30,567 nt of DNA, from positions 1 to 30,567 of the IMG/VR virus record IMGVR_UViG_3300020465_000063; one strand, 5' to 3'. The notes under the pieces are model-generated. The model did not search any database, had not been told where the DNA came from, and was given only the letters and a program-made list of their open reading frames with translations. Made by a program: the position numbers and the translations under genes. This DNA comes from a virus. Of this stretch, positions 1,212 through 16,760 are shown in pieces (position 1 is the first letter of the stretch; each line of letters begins with the position of its first letter).

Positions 1212-1763
1212 TTAAGTAATACCATAAATTGAAACTTTTCCTGTTGCAAAATTTTCACCATTTGTTGCAGTCAATTTGAATCCATCAACAGTAGAAGTTT
1301 GTTTGTAAGAACCTGCACCAAAAGTATTGTGACCACCATTGCTATCTCCTGAATCAGTGCCTGAACCCATTGTGCTTCTAATTAATGTTTGTGTAAATCT
1401 TGAATCTTGTGAACCATAAATATCAACTATACCTGCCCACCTATTACCTTGTGCACCTGAAGTTCCACCTAATGATTCTTGATTTAATTTAATACCTACA
1501 CCACTACTACCATCATCATCATGGAAATCTGATTCATTAAAACCTTGTGTACCTCTAATCCACTGACTTGAATAATCTGCACCATCAGTATCTTCTGTAC
1601 CACCAACTGTAAATGTCATAAACAAATTATTATTTGCATCTGTAGCTATACCGATATTTCCAAAAACTAAACGATATAAATTATAATCTGAAGTAAGACC
1701 AGTTACTGTTAAAGTGGATGCACCTGTTGGCATAGCAGTTGTTGATATTAAATTCATACTCAT
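1212..1763 (-). CDS. Fibre-like beta-rich protein, cassette 2 type B'
   Basis: 183 residues, no catalytic motifs, rich in Gly, Ser, Thr and Asn with alternating beta-strand patterns. It ends in FATGKVSIYGIT, the C-terminal signature (S/A)G.(V/I).(I/L)YG(I/V) shared by most of the six adjacent genes. It aligns by eye with the gene at 2880-3428: an N..L...(F/W)TV.GT.D....Y core, a GTSG segment, and ...T.DG...(A/T)N.(G/S)(N/E)(N/F).A(S/T)G..S(I/L) at the end. Third member of the second A-B-B' triplet. ATG 1763 overlaps the stop of the previous gene (ATGA). Probably a virion surface or receptor-binding component; inference from composition, repeats and location after the nozzle gene. Confidence 0.75.
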   Translation of the reverse strand: MSMNLISTTAMPTGASTLTVTGLTSDYNLYRLVFGNIGIATDANNNLFMTFTVGGTEDTDGADYSSQWIRGTQGFNESDFHDDDGSSGVGIKLNQESLGGTSGAQGNRWAGIVDIYGSQDSRFTQTLIRSTMGSGTDSGDSNGGHNTFGAGSYKQTSTVDGFKLTATNGENFATGKVSIYGIT

Positions 1764-2251
1764 TGTTTTATACCATACACAATTACAGCCCCTTCATCAA
1801 AAGCATCACTAGCACCTTGTTGATAAAACTTTATACCTCTATGTTGTTCTGTATCATCTGTATAAGTAACACCTTGATACACTGCATCAGAAGCTTCTTC
1901 AATACCATCAGAAATAAGTCTTGTTTGTGTTGCCACCATTGGACCAAATACATAGGCTTTGAATGATGTATTATCACCTTTCCAAAAGAAATCGTATACT
2001 CTATTAGTATTATTAGACCTTTGATAAGCAATAGAACCTGAACCCATATAGATTTGATGAAAATCATATTTACTATCACTTTGTTCACTACCTGATGAAT
2101 CAAGAAGTCGCATGTTTATTGATGAACCAGTGCCACCAAACTGTGTACAATAAATTACATAGTCATCATAGTCTGTAGTAAATACATTATCTAATGTGAC
2201 TGTTGAAACATCTGCTTCTATAACAGAACCACCAACTTTTACTAATTTCAT
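1760..2251 (-). CDS. Fibre-like beta-rich protein, cassette 2 type B
   Basis: 163 residues, beta-rich, ends in GAVIVYGIKQ. Its first 40 residues (VSTVTLDNVFTTDYDDYVIY) match those of the gene at 3428-3955 (ISTVNIENVFSSDYDIYKII) position for position, so the two are type B paralogues. Overlaps both neighbours by four bases (ATGA), so translation is coupled through the whole cassette. Lacks the N-terminal GY(L/I)G anchor found in type A. Probably a fibre or receptor-binding subunit; no enzymatic residues are visible. Confidence 0.75.
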   Translation of the reverse strand: MKLVKVGGSVIEADVSTVTLDNVFTTDYDDYVIYCTQFGGTGSSINMRLLDSSGSEQSDSKYDFHQIYMGSGSIAYQRSNNTNRVYDFFWKGDNTSFKAYVFGPMVATQTRLISDGIEEASDAVYQGVTYTDDTEQHRGIKFYQQGASDAFDEGAVIVYGIKQ

Positions 2252-2883
2252 TTTAAATTGACTCCATATATAGTAACTCTACCACCTGAAAATGTTCCTG
2301 CACTTGGCACAAAACCAATTCCATTGACAACATTACTTTCATTGTAATAACCCATTCCGAAACTTAAATCTATAAATGTTCCTGCAGCATCTGTTTTTAC
2401 AGTTTGAAATAAAACACCAGGTAATGTTGTTGATGTATCAGCATGATGAAGTTCTATATGTACATCAAGAGGTTTAGTAGCTTCGCTAGAAGTACCAAGT
2501 TGTATTTCAGAATCTGCTGTATCAGCTATGTCTGCAAGAGTTCCTTGGTCGTTTAATTCTCTTTCTCTGTAATCATAATCAGAACCACCTGATTTTAAAG
2601 TAACACCATTATCCTCTGAAAATCTTAAAAATAAAATAGCATCTTCACTAAAAGTAACACCTTGTACAAAAATTAAATACTGTCCATATCCAGTTATATC
2701 TCCTATAAGAGTGCTTGAACCTGACAATTCAGTTACACTAAGTAACCTGTACGCTTCATTCGTAGGTCCATATTTGTTTTCTTGTTTTAAATCTATTACA
2801 TCATTAGGACTAAAGACACCTGCATTACCAGTTTGTATACTTTGTGCAGGTACATCTTTTCCTATGTATCCATATTTACTCAT
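2248..2883 (-). CDS. Fibre-like protein with anchor motif, cassette 2 type A
   Basis: 211 residues. The N-terminus has a GYIG...N.GVFS.NDVIDL motif (residues ~4-33), shared with the gene at 3952-4578 (GYLG...N.GILSIDDVLQL); I read it as a virion-attachment segment because it occurs at the extreme N-terminus of otherwise beta-rich proteins. The remainder is beta-strand rich and ends in FSGGRVTIYGVNLK, the IYG(I/V) signature of the cassette. Type A is the longest of the three types in both triplets. Start and stop both overlap the neighbouring genes by four bases. Confidence 0.75.
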   Translation of the reverse strand: MSKYGYIGKDVPAQSIQTGNAGVFSPNDVIDLKQENKYGPTNEAYRLLSVTELSGSSTLIGDITGYGQYLIFVQGVTFSEDAILFLRFSEDNGVTLKSGGSDYDYRERELNDQGTLADIADTADSEIQLGTSSEATKPLDVHIELHHADTSTTLPGVLFQTVKTDAAGTFIDLSFGMGYYNESNVVNGIGFVPSAGTFSGGRVTIYGVNLK

Positions 2884-3428
2884 GAGCCTCGTACCTTAAA
2901 TAAACTAAATGTTCCACTTGCTATGTTATTACCACTATTGGCATAAAAGTATACTCCATCAGTTGCTTGATTTTCTTGCAACACTCCACTACCAGAAAAA
3001 GTACCTGTTCTACTTTGTGCTGTATTTCTATTTACATTTTCAACAGTACAATAACTAAATCCACTAGCGTTATTAAAATTATAGAGGTGCATTATCATAT
3101 TAACTGCATTATTTCCTGATGTTCCAGTAGTTTGATTAAAGTCTAAACTACTTCCACCTGCTGCTCCTGAAGCTCCAAATGTAGCATCATGGTATTTTGC
3201 TTTCAAAGATTGGTGATAATTAGATGAAGAATCATTAGTACCACTAACAGTCCATCTTAATCTTAAATCATCATTGCTATCAAAAAATACATTACTAACA
3301 GTTACTACATAAACTTCATCTGTATTAATAGCAAAGTCAACACCTGAACTACTACTACTACCACCACCGATAGTTACATTTGCTACATTGCTAGTCACTG
3401 TGAATGAATCTACTTGTTGTAATGCCAT
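2880..3428 (-). CDS. Fibre-like beta-rich protein, cassette 1 type B'
   Basis: 182 residues with a serine-rich loop (SSSSS at ~25-29). It ends in SGTFSLFKVRGS, a diverged form of the cassette's IYG(I/V) terminus. Core strands (DLRLRWTVSGTND, GTSGNNAVNMIMHLY) match the gene at 1212-1763, which makes it that gene's paralogue. The ATG shares one base with the preceding stop (TAATG). Likely a fibre or receptor-binding subunit. Divergence from its paralogue is strong at residue level, so an old or fast-evolving duplication. Confidence 0.75.
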   Translation of the reverse strand: MALQQVDSFTVTSNVANVTIGGGSSSSSGVDFAINTDEVYVVTVSNVFFDSNDDLRLRWTVSGTNDSSSNYHQSLKAKYHDATFGASGAAGGSSLDFNQTTGTSGNNAVNMIMHLYNFNNASGFSYCTVENVNRNTAQSRTGTFSGSGVLQENQATDGVYFYANSGNNIASGTFSLFKVRGS

Positions 3429-3955
3429 TAGTTTATTGCCAATCCATAAGTTCTAATAGAGCCACTTGAAAAAGGTCTTGAACCATTAGAATCTATTACT
3501 TGAAAACCTGTAAGAGCTGTTTTAACTTGTAAAGTTCCTCCACCTTTTATCATTAAAAACAAACCTGCTGCTGCACATTCACTATGATAAGTTACATAAG
3601 TGTATGTAGTTGAAGCAGGACTATATACATATAAAACTCCTCCTGCTGATTCAGGTTCTTGGTCAATACCTTCTGCAAATGCTCTATAAAATTGAGGTTG
3701 GTCTGAACCTTTTTCATCAGTAACAGAGCCACTTCTTGCTATTGTATGTGCATAATCGTAGCTATTAGAAACTATAGTATCTCCAGAACTTGCAATAAAT
3801 CTTAGGTTAGGGTCTGTTTGGTCAGTCCCTGCTGTTGACAATCCTGAAGTAATAATTTTGTATATATCATAATCAGAACTAAATACATTTTCAATATTCA
3901 CAGTTGATATTGAACTTGTTATATTAGTTTCATTAATTAATCTTAAAGCACTCAT
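3428..3955 (-). CDS. Fibre-like beta-rich protein, cassette 1 type B
   Basis: 175 residues. N-terminal ISTVNIENVFSSDYDIYKII is the type B signature shared with the gene at 1760-2251; the C-terminus SSGSIRTYGLAIN is the cassette's common ending. Contains a YTYVTYHSECAAAGLFLMI hydrophobic strand pair. No enzyme motifs. Overlaps the upstream gene by four bases and the downstream gene by one. Second gene of the first A-B-B' triplet. Confidence 0.75.
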   Translation of the reverse strand: MSALRLINETNITSSISTVNIENVFSSDYDIYKIITSGLSTAGTDQTDPNLRFIASSGDTIVSNSYDYAHTIARSGSVTDEKGSDQPQFYRAFAEGIDQEPESAGGVLYVYSPASTTYTYVTYHSECAAAGLFLMIKGGGTLQVKTALTGFQVIDSNGSRPFSSGSIRTYGLAIN

Positions 3956-4578
3956 ACTTTCTTTACTCCATATAGGTCAATATCAAATCCTGTAAAATCA
4001 TTACTTCCACTTCTCATTATTCTTAAACCATCAACAGTACTAGCTTGTGGCATACAGCCACCACCATATCTTGTAGATAGGTAAGAAGCTCCCTGCATTG
4101 TTTCTTTAAAAGTTATAAAAGAATACTTAGCACTATTTCCTAAGTTATGTAAATAAACAACAGCGTTCAAAATTCCTGCTGTACTTAATTGAAATTCAAT
4201 TTGCATATATTCATACGCAGTTTGTGTTTGTACTCCATTTCCACCTGTACTTTCAATGTACTGCACTTCATATTTATAAACACCTGCAGTTTCTAAAGTT
4301 CCACTTTCATATAATTGAATACCAATTCTACCTATGCTAGTTTCAAATCCAAAATTTTTAATATGTAACACATGTGTATCAAATTCACTTTCTTTAATTG
4401 AAGTAAAATCTATAGTAGATACATCTGATGAATGAGTTTGATTAGCAATAAATTGTAGACTTTCTCCTATGTGTCCTACAGATTCTAATTGTAACACATC
4501 ATCAATAGACAAAATGCCATCATTTTTCTTAACTTGTTTTATCTTGGTTGAAGTATCTCCCAAATATCCAAATGACAT
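3952..4578 (-). CDS. Fibre-like protein with anchor motif, cassette 1 type A
   Basis: 208 residues. N-terminal GYLGDTSTK...N.GILSIDDVLQLESVGHIG is the anchor motif of type A. It is followed by a beta-rich body containing STIDFTSIKESEFDTHVLHI, which resembles the STVNIENVFSSDYDIY stretch of type B, and it ends in GFDIDLYGVKKV. This suggests that type A equals a type B-like body plus an attachment segment. First gene of the six-gene block; nine bases separate it from the 109-aa gene, with TTAGGAGT as ribosome site. Probable fibre or receptor-binding protein. Confidence 0.78.
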   Translation of the reverse strand: MSFGYLGDTSTKIKQVKKNDGILSIDDVLQLESVGHIGESLQFIANQTHSSDVSTIDFTSIKESEFDTHVLHIKNFGFETSIGRIGIQLYESGTLETAGVYKYEVQYIESTGGNGVQTQTAYEYMQIEFQLSTAGILNAVVYLHNLGNSAKYSFITFKETMQGASYLSTRYGGGCMPQASTVDGLRIMRSGSNDFTGFDIDLYGVKKV

Positions 4579-10994: not shown

Positions 10995-12047
10995 TTAGGA
11001 TTCTAAAAGTCCTGTAACTGCACCTGTTGTAGCTTGTGTTGCACCCAATGAAACTGCACTAGCAGACTCTTGTTGCCTAATAATGTTTACTACTTCTCTT
11101 AGTTCTTCTGATTGTCCTAGTTCTGTACCTTCAATAATATCTTCAACTGTTGGTACATCTCTACCTTGTGATAATGCTTGTTGCTGTATAGACCTAACTT
11201 GTTGGAATCCTCTTCTTGCTGCAGCAACACTAAGACCTAAATCTTTTAATTGTTCTGCTACTTCTACAGATATATCTTCACCTGCAAGTAATGCTTCTGC
11301 ACCTATCTGTGCTGTTTCTATTCTCTCTGCAACTATATCTCTTGATGATATTGTTCCAGAAATAATATCTTGACCTATCTGTGGGTCTATTGCCGATACC
11401 AATATTTCTTCATCTGTTAGTACACGATTAAAGTTTCTTAGATAAAACTCTTTAACTTCTGGTATAGAACCTAATACATCACCTCTTACTGCTTCTATTC
11501 TTGCACCTAACTCATCAGGAGATACCACATTTTCTATAAGTTGTGCCTTTCTTTCAGATGTAAGTATTACATCAGGATTAACATTTATTGCTTCAATCTT
11601 TCTTTTATATCCATCTTCTATCTGTCTATATTCTGCTTCAGTATATTTAACTGTTGCACCATCAGGATTTAAGTTACCTGCAAATGCTTGTTTGTATTCA
11701 GGTGTTTGTCTAACTGCAGATATAGCAGATGATTCATCTTCACCAAATTTTAAATAATTTTCTACCCATACATCTAATAAAGATTGAGATAATAAATTAC
11801 CAAACTTTAATTTACCTATCTCTGCAATTTTATTTTTTGCTGCTTCTGTAAGTTGTGTTGAATCACTTTGTTTTGGTGTACCTGCTGTACCTGTATAGTT
11901 AGAACCACCTAATGTAGTAGAACCTGCTAGTGCCTCTTCATAAGACTCTGTATATCCTGCACTTTCAATTAAAAAATCTGCTCTTTCTCTACTACTAACT
12001 GTAAATCCTGGAAGGTCATCTTTTCTAAATAGTTTTATTTCTGCCAT
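10995..12047 (-). CDS. Probable internal virion protein, 350 aa
   Basis: Not assignable to a named family. 350 residues, predicted mostly helical, acidic and basic residues mixed. A motif region at ~108-140 (LLDVWVENYLKFGEDESSA...RQTPEYKQAFAGNLNPDG) is of a type that I recall from helical proteins in phage ejection/internal blocks (..YL..(F/Y).......A...(L/V)R.TPEYK..F.GN). Contains long helices around VAERIETAQIGAEALLAGED and an alanine/glutamine-rich C-terminus. Last gene of the 14-kb block that begins with the giant protein; coupled to the 437-aa gene by TAATG. An ejected or core protein is the most likely role. Confidence 0.55.
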   Translation of the reverse strand: MAEIKLFRKDDLPGFTVSSRERADFLIESAGYTESYEEALAGSTTLGGSNYTGTAGTPKQSDSTQLTEAAKNKIAEIGKLKFGNLLSQSLLDVWVENYLKFGEDESSAISAVRQTPEYKQAFAGNLNPDGATVKYTEAEYRQIEDGYKRKIEAINVNPDVILTSERKAQLIENVVSPDELGARIEAVRGDVLGSIPEVKEFYLRNFNRVLTDEEILVSAIDPQIGQDIISGTISSRDIVAERIETAQIGAEALLAGEDISVEVAEQLKDLGLSVAAARRGFQQVRSIQQQALSQGRDVPTVEDIIEGTELGQSEELREVVNIIRQQESASAVSLGATQATTGAVTGLLES

Positions 12048-13360
12048 TATGTAGGTACTCCTCTTAATACTCCTGCAGGACTTACACCAAGTGACTGTGC
12101 TGCATCATCTGTTATGTTGTCTAATACTTTAGCGTTGTCGTTGTTAGCACCATATATCAATGTTAACTCTGCTGCTTTTGTAGCATCATTAGCCATAAGT
12201 ATTTCATAAAACACTGGTGATGTTTCACTCATTCTTTCACCAAGTTTATTAAATGTAAAGTTTCTCCAAGGAGTAGCTATATCTTCGTATGTTAAATTTT
12301 CATCATAAAGACTTGTAGGAAAAATAGTTTTTCTTATTTCTTTAAACCTATTGTTAAGTAATTCATTACCTACCTCTTCTGATTCTGCATTTCTATATTG
12401 CCTTGCTAATTCTGCTTGTGTACCAGAGTCCAACATACCATACAATGGTCCTAACCATTTGTATGATGAGTTTTGTACAGTTGCGTAACCAGACCTTGTT
12501 TGTGCTAATACACCTTTACCTGTTAACCAATCAGTAATTTTGCTGTCTATCTTAGGACTTGTACTATCTTCTCCTAATTCATTCACCTGAAACGCAGCAT
12601 AAGTTTCTGTAAACTCTCCTGTTGTTACCATATCTCCGAACCACTGACCAAATGTTTTACCTGTATTTTCATCTACTATTGCATCTACATTAGTTACACC
12701 TGCATCTCTAAGTGCTTGTGAATAAAGTAATCTGTTTTCAGCAACTAAAGTTTTAGCATCAGCAGGTAAGTTTTCATCATCTATACCTCTAGCTTTAGAT
12801 AACACTAACCAATCTATAACTGCTTGTGTCTGTGTTTCAAACCAATCTGTTGCAGCCCACTCCTCTTGTGTAATATCTCTGTCTTCTACTAAACCTTGAA
12901 TCCATAAATTTCTTACTTCTTCATCTGTTTCTAGCCAAGGTCTTGCATCAATAGCTGCTTCCATTAATTCTATAAAACCATTAAAAGGAGAACTACCTTG
13001 AACTATTACATCTGTTGGTAGTTCTGCTAATGATACACCAAACAATACAGAGGTTGTCCATACATCATCACTTACTGTTTGTTCAGAAGGTTTTCTTCTA
13101 CCACTATAAAACTGATTTATTTCTTCATCAGTGGTTTCATAACGCATAAAGAAAGGTTGACCTTGTACTTGCCAAACTACATATTTTTTACCATCTCTTA
13201 CCCATATTTGTGTATCTTGAAATGATTGTGGTGGTAAAGTGGTTGTAGTTTGTGCTGTAGGGTCAGAAGTAAATGTATAACCTGCTGCAATCCTTATTGA
13301 ATCATCTACACCAGGACCAAAGTCTTGCGAATCACCTTCTTCATTGTAATATATTGTCAT
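12047..13360 (-). CDS. Probable internal virion protein, 437 aa
   Basis: Unrecognised. 437 residues; N-terminus is low-complexity with a short threonine run followed by LPP (TTTTLPP at ~39-45), a linker style shared with the lysozyme and the secreted protein. The rest is helical with many tryptophans (WVRDGKKYVVWQV, WIQGLVEDRDITQEEWAATDW). Its C-terminal part (KWLGPLYGMLDSGTQAELARQY) resembles soluble helical domains of phage core proteins in general character only. Ribosome site AGGAG lies in the end of the preceding gene. One-base overlap with the next gene. Confidence 0.55.
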   Translation of the reverse strand: MTIYYNEEGDSQDFGPGVDDSIRIAAGYTFTSDPTAQTTTTLPPQSFQDTQIWVRDGKKYVVWQVQGQPFFMRYETTDEEINQFYSGRRKPSEQTVSDDVWTTSVLFGVSLAELPTDVIVQGSSPFNGFIELMEAAIDARPWLETDEEVRNLWIQGLVEDRDITQEEWAATDWFETQTQAVIDWLVLSKARGIDDENLPADAKTLVAENRLLYSQALRDAGVTNVDAIVDENTGKTFGQWFGDMVTTGEFTETYAAFQVNELGEDSTSPKIDSKITDWLTGKGVLAQTRSGYATVQNSSYKWLGPLYGMLDSGTQAELARQYRNAESEEVGNELLNNRFKEIRKTIFPTSLYDENLTYEDIATPWRNFTFNKLGERMSETSPVFYEILMANDATKAAELTLIYGANNDNAKVLDNITDDAAQSLGVSPAGVLRGVPT

Positions 13361-13363
13361 TTT

Positions 13364-15868
13364 TTATTTCTCCTGTGACATACTAGCAGATTGTTTAAAC
13401 ACACTTTCAATTATAGGTTCACTAATCTTCCATGACAATGACCATGTATCACTAATCTCACCCATTTCTTCCCATGTATCTCTACCTAATTGCTTCCAAT
13501 CAGCATCACCAAATGGTGGTAACCCTTCAAATATTGCACCTCCTGATTCTGCTACAGTACCTAAACCTTGATTTACTCTTGCTTTATTAAGTGCTTGACC
13601 TACATCTGCAAGTAATATTGTTAACTCATAAGCTGTATATGCAATTAACGCAGGTACTGCTATAGCACCTGCACCTAACCTTGGTAACATTCGCACTAAA
13701 CTTTGTTCAATGATAATATCACCTGGGTCTGCTACTTGTGCTATTCTACCTCCTATACCAAATGCTTTACTTACTACTTTTTTAGTATTATCAAATATAT
13801 TGCTAACAATTTCTGGTGCTTCTCTTAGCACTCGTGTAAATCTGTTGTAACCACCTTCACCTACTATGTTAGATAAATTTGTTGTTGTATCATCTGCAAC
13901 ATCAATAACTTCACCTGCTTGATTTATTGCTTTATTGTTTATATCATCTACTACATTTGTAGGTGTGTCTGCAAATTGTTGTGTTAATAATTTTTTAAAT
14001 TCAGGGTCTTGTGCTTGTGTATCAGTAATACCAACAAATGGAATTTTAGGATTATTTGCTCTTTGTATATTTTGAGCTTCATCAATATTAGTCATTATTA
14101 CACTAGCTAATCCTTCTGGTGTCATTCCTGGTGGTAAATCAGTTCTATCTATTACTCGGACCAACCCATCTATTAAATTATTGTGATTACCAATATTTAT
14201 TTTTCCATTTTCTATTAGTTCTGCTACATCAGGTTGTTTTTTTCTAATTGCTGCTATATCTCCTGTTTCAAAATCCATATCAAATTCAGTGTTAAGTGCT
14301 GTATCTTTCATTTCATCAAGAATGGCATCTATAAATTCTTCAGAACCCCAAACTAATCTACCTTTATCTACTACATTTGTAGGTACTACCTTTAAACCAC
14401 CTACCTCATCTAAATTAATATCTGCACCTGTAGGTATATATATATCTAATGTTTCCCCTGTGCGTTTTTGTTGTCTAAGTAAACCAATAACACCTACCTC
14501 TCTTAAATTTCCATCTTCAAGTATTATTAATGGAATATTTTGTTTACTTAAACTGGACACTAAATTTCCTGCAGGTCTAGCGTGTAGTCCTGCATCATCT
14601 AATACCTCTATAGTTATAGGTTTATAGTTTTCTATATCTAAAGTATTTACATCATCTGCTACATTTGTAGTTGTTTCTATAACAGTTATGCCAATATTTG
14701 GGTCTAGTGGATTATTAACAGCTTGGTATATAGGATTATTAGATGACACACTACCCATACCAAAACCTATTTCATCAGGAAAAGCATCATTAACTACAGG
14801 ATTTGTAAAATAATCGTTTATCTTATCAACAACATTTTGATATCTAAATTCATCAAATTCTTTAGTAGCTTTATCCCACAATATTGTATCTGGTCCATTA
14901 TCTGGTCCTTCTTGAAGAACTGCCTCAAACCATTCATTCGCATCTTCAAATCCATACAGTTGTGATTTTTCGTACATATAATCAGCTCTTGCATCATTTA
15001 AAAACTTGTCAAATATTGCAGAAATATTGTCACTCATTTGAATAGATGGCATATCACCTGAACTTGTAGCCATTCCAGTGTATTGATAATATTCATCATT
15101 ACTTAATATTGCATCTCGGTTATTAAAATCTAAATATATACTTTGTCCTAATACAAATTCTTTAGCTTTCTTTGGAAACTCTTCTAAAAATCTTTGATGA
15201 ATTTCTTTTAACTCAGCTATATTATTGGGTGCAATATATGGGTTTTTTATACCTAGCTCGTTTAATCTTTCTGGTGATAAAGGGATTCTGTTATAGCTAA
15301 GGTCTGCAAATTTGTTTGTATCAAATGATGGTCTGTTAAGTGTTTCCAACATGTCTATGTATTCTTCACCATAATTAATTAACATTCTCATCTCTATACT
15401 TTCAGGCATCACATGTCGTATGCCATTGTAAAGTTCTTGTCTATTTACATTTTCAATGATTTGTGCAAACTCATAACTTAATGTATTAAAATCTTCTGCA
15501 TCATCTATAAATTTAATTAAGCCATCTATGCCATCTGGAGAATTAAGAATTACTTCATATTTTGTACTTATTGGTAAAACTTGTTTACCTTCAGTTTTGT
15601 TTAATTCATTAACATCTCTGTAATAATTTATTATTTTTTCTTTAAGTAAACTTTCATTTCCCTTTTGTTGTATTTCCATAGCATTATTAAAAGATTCTTC
15701 TAAATCCATGTGATGCCAGTTATTTTCTAAAAACTGTTTTAATGCTTTTTGTCTATAAAGTTGTGAAGGTGTTAAATCTTCTAAATTACCTGTTGCAGAA
15801 AAATCAAAAATTTCAAATAATTCATTGAGTATTTTATCTTTTTTGGAAATAAGTTCTTCTATTTCCAT
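13364..15868 (-). CDS. 834-aa virion protein with embedded HPr-like domain
   Basis: Large protein in the internal/ejection block. Residues 1-380 are helical and unrecognised. Residues ~415-523 match the PTS phosphocarrier HPr: strand (KPITIEVLDDA), the active-site motif GLHARPA with His429 and Arg431, helix (NLVSSLSK), two strands (IPLIILEDGNLREVG), helix (VIGLLRQQKRTGET), strand (LDIYIPTGAD) and, after an insertion of ~25 residues, a terminal helix (SEEFIDAILDEMK). E. coli HPr reads GLHTRPA at the phosphorylated His15. The regulatory Ser46 position is not conserved. Linkers of type (P/T)TNV(V/A)D(D/K) flank the domain. Residues ~725-760 are hydrophobic and could insert in a membrane. Phosphotransfer is possible from the motif but unproven; the domain could be only a structural fold. 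Confidence 0.75.
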   Translation of the reverse strand: MEIEELISKKDKILNELFEIFDFSATGNLEDLTPSQLYRQKALKQFLENNWHHMDLEESFNNAMEIQQKGNESLLKEKIINYYRDVNELNKTEGKQVLPISTKYEVILNSPDGIDGLIKFIDDAEDFNTLSYEFAQIIENVNRQELYNGIRHVMPESIEMRMLINYGEEYIDMLETLNRPSFDTNKFADLSYNRIPLSPERLNELGIKNPYIAPNNIAELKEIHQRFLEEFPKKAKEFVLGQSIYLDFNNRDAILSNDEYYQYTGMATSSGDMPSIQMSDNISAIFDKFLNDARADYMYEKSQLYGFEDANEWFEAVLQEGPDNGPDTILWDKATKEFDEFRYQNVVDKINDYFTNPVVNDAFPDEIGFGMGSVSSNNPIYQAVNNPLDPNIGITVIETTTNVADDVNTLDIENYKPITIEVLDDAGLHARPAGNLVSSLSKQNIPLIILEDGNLREVGVIGLLRQQKRTGETLDIYIPTGADINLDEVGGLKVVPTNVVDKGRLVWGSEEFIDAILDEMKDTALNTEFDMDFETGDIAAIRKKQPDVAELIENGKINIGNHNNLIDGLVRVIDRTDLPPGMTPEGLASVIMTNIDEAQNIQRANNPKIPFVGITDTQAQDPEFKKLLTQQFADTPTNVVDDINNKAINQAGEVIDVADDTTTNLSNIVGEGGYNRFTRVLREAPEIVSNIFDNTKKVVSKAFGIGGRIAQVADPGDIIIEQSLVRMLPRLGAGAIAVPALIAYTAYELTILLADVGQALNKARVNQGLGTVAESGGAIFEGLPPFGDADWKQLGRDTWEEMGEISDTWSLSWKISEPIIESVFKQSASMSQEK
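13946..14671 (-). repeat. Short linker repeats around HPr-like module
   Basis: The 19-mer ATCTACTACATTTGTAGGT (plus strand) occurs exactly at 13946-13964 and 14366-14384, and a near copy, ATCTGCTACATTTGTAGT, at 14654-14671. They encode the inter-domain linkers PTNVVDD, PTNVVDK and TTNVADD of the 834-aa protein. The HPr-like domain lies between the copies at 14366 and 14654; a second segment lies between 13946 and 14366. Confidence 0.7.
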
Positions 15869-15870
15869 AG

Positions 15871-15975
15871 TTATTTCTTAAATAATTCATCTTTTACTTT
15901 TTGAATATCTTCCTTTGTAATACCTTTTCTAGGTGCTTTGTCACGATTCTTTTCTAAGTCTTCAAAATATCCCAT
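15871..15975 (-). CDS. 34-aa charged protein
   Basis: Unrecognised small gene filling the gap between the lysozyme and the 834-aa gene. The product (MGYFEDLEKNRDKAPRKGIT...) is highly charged, helical in its second half, and begins with the ATG that overlaps the lysozyme stop (TAATG). The stop precedes the next ATG by two bases. Exact packing between two genes, coupling and phage-like codon use make it likely to be real. No function can be stated. Confidence 0.65.
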   Translation of the reverse strand: MGYFEDLEKNRDKAPRKGITKEDIQKVKDELFKK

Positions 15976-16760
15976 TATCTACCACCCAAAAATTTTAATG
16001 CTTGTTCAAGAAAACTTGAATCTTTAATTTTTCTTTCATTTGCTTGTTTCTTAATAGGGTTAAGTCCTTTTTCCATTCTTTGTTTATTAACTTGTTTCTC
16101 CATCATATTTAAAGCTAAATCATAAACACCACTTGCAAACATTCTTGACATGTCTTGTGGTGGTGTACCAAACATATTTGTAATACCTTCACTTCTAGTT
16201 GTTGTATCTATTTCCTCATCTTGTTCTGGCATTGTTGTAGTAGTTGTAGTAGTTGTTGATGGAATTGGACCAGGCTCAAAACCTTCTTCTGGTTCTGGTA
16301 TTCCTCTGTCTGGGTTTAAAGCACCTAGTTCAACATTTACTCTATTTATAAGTCCTGGAAAATTTTTTCTATCGTTATCTGTTATAGATGTATTCCATAT
16401 TTTAGCAATCTCATCTTCATTATCTAATAACAACGCATCATAAAATTTCTTATCAGATAATCTACCTGGTCTATTAAATGTACCTATTACCATAACATCA
16501 AACTGTTCCTGATTAAATGTAATACCATAATTTTTTAATCTTTGATTTACAATTCTTTGTGTTTCTTGTAAATCTTTTTGCAATAACTCATTTGCTTTTT
16601 CTTCGGTTATAGTGTCACCTAATTCAAATTGCTCTCCACCTGATAAATTACTGTGACCATATCCTATTGATATAGAAACACCATCTGGATATGCTTCTAA
16701 TTTTAATACTTCAAGTTCTTTTACAATTTCTATGGCAGGTAATGATACTTCTAAATCCAT
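15975..16760 (-). CDS. Virion-associated GH24 lysozyme with Thr linker
   Basis: 261 residues. The N-terminal ~150 residues are a T4/P22-type lysozyme (GH24) that cleaves the glycan strand of peptidoglycan: E17 in EVLKLEAY, D26 in YPDG, and SIGYGHSNL where the usual TIGYGH catalytic threonine is replaced by Ser31. The family's later FPGLINRVNVEL segment is present. Then a proline/glutamate linker with eight threonines (169-176) and a basic helical tail (NKQRMEKGLNPIKKQANERK). Free endolysins lack such a tail. Lying in the internal-protein block rather than in a lysis cassette, it is more likely carried in the particle to open the wall at infection. Ribosome site GGAGGATAAT lies within the end of the preceding gene. 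Confidence 0.82.
   Translation of the reverse strand: MDLEVSLPAIEIVKELEVLKLEAYPDGVSISIGYGHSNLSGGEQFELGDTITEEKANELLQKDLQETQRIVNQRLKNYGITFNQEQFDVMVIGTFNRPGRLSDKKFYDALLLDNEDEIAKIWNTSITDNDRKNFPGLINRVNVELGALNPDRGIPEPEEGFEPGPIPSTTTTTTTTMPEQDEEIDTTTRSEGITNMFGTPPQDMSRMFASGVYDLALNMMEKQVNKQRMEKGLNPIKKQANERKIKDSSFLEQALKFLGGR

Follow-up and report, generated by a model that had tools for sequence, protein, structure and literature searches.

An HPr-like domain within a linker-bounded, exchangeable cassette of a modular virion-locus protein from a marine phage

The HPr family is old, and it is already known that phages can have modular effector proteins. The polyvalent proteins of phages and conjugative elements carry many unrelated effector-like domains per polypeptide, including an acetyltransferase, and are predicted to travel with the phage DNA (Iyer et al. 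2017, PMC5512222). In the MuF polymorphic toxins of temperate phages (PMC5576092) and in bacterial polymorphic toxin systems (PMC3482391), one constant region is combined with effector regions that are exchanged by recombination. The virion ADP-ribosyltransferase Alt of phage T4 provides a model of a packaged and injected protein that modifies the host, but it is a single enzyme, without cassettes and without HPr (general knowledge and PMC5512222).

The locus described here, from an uncultured marine phage, may resemble the polyvalent proteins, several domain types being found across the phage group on proteins that would be delivered, and it shares with the polymorphic toxins the combination of a constant region with variable, recombining effector regions. 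It differs from the former in the near-invariant DNA linker that lies between its modules and in its HPr domain, which goes unmentioned in PMC5512222, and from the latter in that the constant end is C-terminal, that each protein holds several cassettes and that the border is a short linker at the DNA level. Among 58 proteins encoded by genes that contain the linker, neither the MuF domain nor the domains associated with polyvalent proteins in PMC5512222 were matched in Pfam at E ≤ 0.01. The HPr-like domain is tied to the HPr family (PF00381, TIGR01003) by its core fold, by the His15-Arg17-Pro18 signature and by sequence similarity, whereas it departs from that family in being embedded in a putative phage cargo protein, in being flanked by a putative recombination linker, in having Gly, Gln or Ala at the position of Ser46 and in not forming the third helix. 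No report of a delivered HPr, or of a DNA-level adaptor at module borders, was found in the open-access literature searched, which does not show that none exists.

The window, by which we mean the whole stretch of 30,567 nucleotides that was analysed, encodes on its minus strand an 834-aa modular protein (Table 1). Its gene is flanked by those for a lysozyme (15975-16760) and for g437 (12047-13360), within a structural block of the order terminase-portal-...-scaffold-capsid. The initial annotation was right to place an HPr domain within a phage virion-locus protein. PHROGs holds no family for the 834-aa protein, and matches to TrbL_2 and Prominin fell below the cut-off and were discarded. Homologues were found only among IMG/VR viral contigs, and a tblastn search of INPHARED with the protein returned nothing. 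In close relatives the terminase, the portal and a 2301-aa protein are about 91-98% identical to those of the window, against 47-66% for the N-terminal part of the 834-aa protein, and the gene is missing altogether from L034 and L042 despite their close neighbouring genes (g437 85-86% identical; TerL 98% in L034). The gene is the fast-changing, optional part of the structural block. Linker genes whose neighbours are known lie in the same block, with TerL 52-98% identical to that of the window, and most of those aligned have a common C-terminal region that contains hydrophobic residues in a row as well as the motif S-D-x-W/Y-S-x-x-x-K-I-S; the peptide SDTWSLSWKISEPI belongs to this constant region.

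Table 1. Features of the 834-aa protein gene, in coordinates of the window
Feature	Position	Strand	Basis or remark
834-aa modular virion-locus protein gene	13364..15868	-	ORF; homologues in same position
N-terminal backbone, residues 1-395	14684..15868	-	common mainly to closest relatives, 47-66% identity
HPr cassette upstream linker ACTACAAATGTAGCAGAT	14654..14671	-	2 mismatches to consensus 18-mer
HPr-like domain, residues 415-495	14384..14626	-	Pfam/TIGR, PDB sequence, fold
His429	14582..14584	-	equivalent to phosphorylated His15 of HPr; unchanged in relatives and in the three further HPr kinds
Arg431	14576..14578	-	equivalent to HPr Arg17; invariant except in L124 (Gln)
Linker between HPr and next cassette	14366..14383	-	exact CCTACAAATGTAGTAGAT
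Second cassette, residues ~502-635 (GRLVWGSEEFIDAILDEM...)	13964..14365	-	matches L130, L055
Linker before C-terminal constant region	13946..13963	-	exact CCTACAAATGTAGTAGAT
C-terminal constant region, residues 638-834	13364..13957	-	hydrophobic at 735-754; many of the group's linker genes have a related region

The neighbouring lysozyme gene is itself exchanged: it is of T4 type in the window and in L042 (2180-3055), and a different enzyme-like N-terminus occupies this gene in L034 (18006-18734), with a weak SLT-type Pfam match, and, as judged by eye, in L028 (17975-18856), the variants having a similar C-terminal tail, MEKQVNKQR. The C-terminal part of the window's lysozyme gene (16150-16443) contains a run of threonine codons (TTTTTTTT), for which the opposite strand shows consecutive valines, and a similar run is found in L031. 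At 1212-4578, six consecutive genes encode proteins that are 163-211 aa long, end alike (YGI/YGV) and are little conserved in relatives; these are possibly a duplicated family of fibre or appendage proteins.

The computational evidence shows residues 415-495 to be a homologue of HPr with an intact His/Arg/Pro active site. Against this genome the PTS-HPr profile PF00381 scored 20.4 bits (E 1.3e-5) and TIGR01003 scored 23.8 bits (E 1.0e-6), both under their curated cut-offs, and the window's domain alone scored 21.3 bits (E 2.8e-4) with the Pfam profile, likewise below its curated cut-off of 23 bits; that cut-off is exceeded in the relatives L003 (31.1 bits, E 2.5e-7), L011 (29.3 bits) and L017 (24.6 bits). 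The first 19 matches of a PDB sequence search were all HPr or NPr. An AlphaFold model of the isolated module, for which remote relatives were included in the alignment, reached a pLDDT of 90, and a PDB structure search with this model ranked 29 HPr/Crh entries ahead of anything else, with a best match of Z 7.3 over 79 of 87 residues at an rmsd of 3.0. The full-length model, which has low confidence outside HPr and is too poor for use there, gives the same result for residues 415-494. A structural search of BFVD at E ≤ 0.001 was negative, which does not prove that no match exists.

The extent and the details of the fold require some correction. The domain, previously drawn as residues 415-523, begins as described (residue 415 corresponds to base 14626 on the minus strand) but ends near residue 495; residues 496-523 belong partly to the linker and partly to the unrelated cassette that opens after it, into which the former boundary at 14300 overruns. 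The order of strands and helices attributed to HPr holds for the core, since beta1-alphaA-beta2-beta3-alphaB-beta4 is present in the predicted structure, but the third helix, alphaC, which closes the sheet in HPr, is not formed in the window family, where a short strand (model residues 88-90) takes its place. The segment VIGLLRQQKRTGET, which had been read as a helix that fits HPr, is in the model a helix of five residues followed by a loop. The Pfam match of the window family stops at profile position 61 of 81, and those of L064 and L138 extend to position 76. Because the third helix is not formed, the domain is best termed an HPr-like homologue rather than a canonical HPr.

At the active site, His429 sits inside the motif G-L-H-A-R-P-A, and His429, Arg431 and Pro432, the counterparts of His15, Arg17 and Pro18, are invariant in close relatives. 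Failure of homologues to keep the histidine and the arginine had been named beforehand as evidence against an HPr; both are kept, with G-L-H-A-R-P invariant in 8/8 distinct sequences of the close family. Ser46 is missing, as had been noted, its position being taken by Gly459 in the window and by Gln or Ala in close relatives. Across the phage group there are four kinds of HPr, sitting in different backbones: that of the window and those of L077, of L064/L138 and of L124. The other three kinds are 25-33% identical to the window's HPr; all keep the histidine, and three of the four kinds keep the arginine. L077 matches Pfam PTS-HPr at 29.8 bits (24.1 bits, above the cut-off, for the full protein) and L064/L138 at 27.3 and 23.6 bits, while L124 has no Pfam match and reads GMLHAQPT, with the histidine kept and Gln in place of Arg17. 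A tblastn search of INPHARED with the L077 module gave one weak match of 27% in an unannotated faecal phage record.

For the HPr cassette, most well-separated pairs gave a moderate dN/dS of 0.3-0.7, so the constraint on the domain as a whole is loose, which speaks against the functional proposal made below. The HPr fold might be no more than a structural spacer within a virion protein, as would suit a fast-evolving, modular gene that one close relative, L016, keeps without the domain. In a spacer, however, the histidine and arginine of the active site would not stay fixed as the remaining sequence changes, and the neighbouring cassettes in other genes look enzymatic. Given that the active-site motif persists at 25-33% identity and that the cassette is dispensable, a purely structural use of the fold, which the initial annotation had left as an alternative, is less likely, and we consider it improbable.

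Comparison of the linker genes shows the HPr segment to be a cassette, which some relatives have, others lack and others exchange for a different one; homology breaks off at the linker. Homology ends were taken as the points inside different linker genes at which stretches of shared DNA identity (at least 85% over at least 90 nt) stop; L070/L076, L081 and L096, which are unrelated genes holding the linker, were excluded from the junction analysis. In 106 of 157 cases the end lies no more than 6 nt from a linker, against 5.1 expected from random positions, which is an excess of about 20-fold, although some of the 157 ends are shared by descent, so that 106 is not a count of independent events. 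The clearest case involves HPr itself: L064 and L085 share 97% identity as far as the linker and 93% beyond the cassette, yet the former holds HPr and the latter a different cassette, which recurs with 99.5% identity in another gene, L083. L016 represents the empty site, in which NPLD runs directly into TPTNVVDD. The second cassette of the window belongs to no known family, and the same module is found in L130 (45% identity, with linkers on both sides) and in L055 (48%). The insert that follows HPr in L009/L017 and that occurs also in L117 (ETITIYRVVPEGVNSVNANDWVF...NLEMGYFP) is 91% identical between the two genes; its reading by eye as an ADP-ribosyltransferase found no support in Pfam or PDB sequence searches. 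The central point, absent from the initial annotation, is that HPr belongs to a large set of exchangeable cassettes with a DNA-level linker at their borders. PTS-HPr is the commonest Pfam family of the 58 linker-gene proteins (7 proteins at E ≤ 0.01), which also include methyltransferase (6, below the cut-off), acetyltransferase (4) and Nudix (1) matches, and HPr cassettes adjoin acetyltransferase, Nudix and methyltransferase-like domains. In a further linker gene, L057 (6354-8405), Pfam recognises a class II fructose-bisphosphate aldolase by its C-terminal half (E 6.4e-36); the sequence that L057 shares with L092 stops at a point that is not near a linker, and L057 may therefore be an assembly chimera.

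The linker at the cassette borders, GACACACCTACAAATGTAGTAGATGAT, is a near-invariant DNA sequence of 18-27 bases that is read as DTPTNVVDD. Its 18-mer occurs three times in the window (two exact copies and one with 2 mismatches), always in the 834-aa gene, against 0.06 occurrences expected by chance in the window, and the exact core was found in 99 IMG/VR stretches. The reading frame is the same in 123/124 sites (DTPTNVVDD or a close variant), as would be needed if the linker were conserved as a peptide, for example as a cleavage or flexible site, with its DNA identity a by-product. Synonymous positions are nevertheless as invariant as the others. All 24 nt are identical in 64/70 distinct contexts, where codon usage in these genes would predict 3.7%, and at 46 junctions whose two flanks are both unique the third positions of the central codons carry 2.0 bits or nearly so, against 0.31 bits in the flanks. 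The loci of these 46 junctions were retrieved with the 18-mer, and a scan with degenerate spellings is therefore the fairer test of DNA against peptide conservation: a search with the 8192 synonymous spellings of TPTNVVDD returned 76 stretches and only one new locus. Moreover, the altered linkers DTPTNVASS, DTPTNVELV and DTPTNVGDD retain the same bases outside the altered part, and homology ends cluster at the linker. Conservation as a peptide is accordingly an unlikely explanation. The linker core CTACAAATGTAG, for example at 13951-13962 of the window (minus strand), contains a short inverted repeat, CTACA-AA-TGTAG.

On the function of the protein our judgement is evenly balanced as to whether it is a late virion-locus cargo protein whose C-terminal region is constant and whose N-terminal and middle parts consist of shuffled host-takeover cassettes, with an HPr domain that docks on Enzyme I or takes phosphate from it and so drains or redirects the PTS. 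According to this proposal, identical linkers in co-infecting phages would undergo homologous recombination, by which cassettes would be swapped in frame, and the 834-aa protein would be packaged and enter the cell with the DNA. The protein is probably injected, a view that rests on its position in the structural block, its constant C-terminus and its enzyme-like companions, as argued for the polyvalent proteins (PMC5512222). Once inside, the HPr domain would dock on host Enzyme I and receive phosphate on His429. The absence of Ser46 would make it immune to switch-off by HPr kinase, and the altered loop at helix 2 together with the missing third helix would make onward phosphate transfer poor, which favours the role of a sink, decoy or redirecting factor over that of a normal carrier. 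The most likely outcome would be that, early in infection, the host PTS is drained or redirected, or Enzyme I is kept occupied. The initial annotation had likewise suggested that an injected HPr domain could tap or block the host PTS.

The main rival to phosphate transfer is docking without it, the HPr fold serving as a docking or targeting module through which the ejected protein, or the complex for DNA entry, would reach an HPr partner, for which Enzyme I, an EII permease, glycogen phosphorylase, and Rsd-like or regulator proteins are candidates. PTS permeases are DNA-entry factors for some coliphages, and HPr is known to regulate by binding, with complexes of E. coli Rsd (4xwj) and of glycogen phosphorylase (9s8k) among the structure matches. 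The altered second-helix loop, the missing third helix and the Gln for Arg17 of L124 would all fit binding without efficient transfer. Chemistry at the histidine is indicated, on the other hand, by its presence in every HPr cassette found and by the retention of His-x-Arg-Pro in 3/4 kinds at 25-33% identity, and docking alone is in our estimation a somewhat unlikely account.

The identity of the host bears on the phosphorelay that the domain would meet. The nearest INPHARED relatives of the terminase and portal are those of Streptomyces phages, at 22-25% identity. In the GTDB collection the linker occurs on one genome contig, which is binned to the MAG Actinomycetota bacterium RS345; the contig of this MAG that was inspected has a GC content of 34%, against about 33% for the window. 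A single contig of the RS345 MAG encodes both HPr, at 74.6 bits, and Enzyme I, at 41.6 bits, beside genes read by eye as mannitol-1-phosphate dehydrogenase and as mannitol- and glucitol-type EII. Several terminases of this phage group, 53-57% identical, occur in an Actinomycetota MAG (L143, PBPX01000045.1, and G001:C30 and C36), two of them on one contig, and because the RS345 MAG holds several phage terminases its binning is weak evidence of the host. No near relative of the window's HPr family was found encoded on cellular genome contigs. If an Actinomycetota host is right, that host owns the phosphorelay which the HPr module would address.

In its broadest form the proposal is that this group of marine phages shares a library of injected effector modules, HPr included, which is shuffled in frame through an adaptor of 18-27 bases, perhaps by a dedicated recombinase, and in which HPr, delivered by the phage and beyond the reach of HPr kinase, accepts phosphate and rewires the PTS of the host; we offer this as a tentative possibility. 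The results suggest that the PTS phosphorelay may be a new target of phage takeover, reached through a delivered HPr, and that effector domains may be exchanged between phages through a DNA-level adaptor. The linker also provides a simple handle for cataloguing unknown phage effectors from metagenomes, each segment between two linkers being a candidate.
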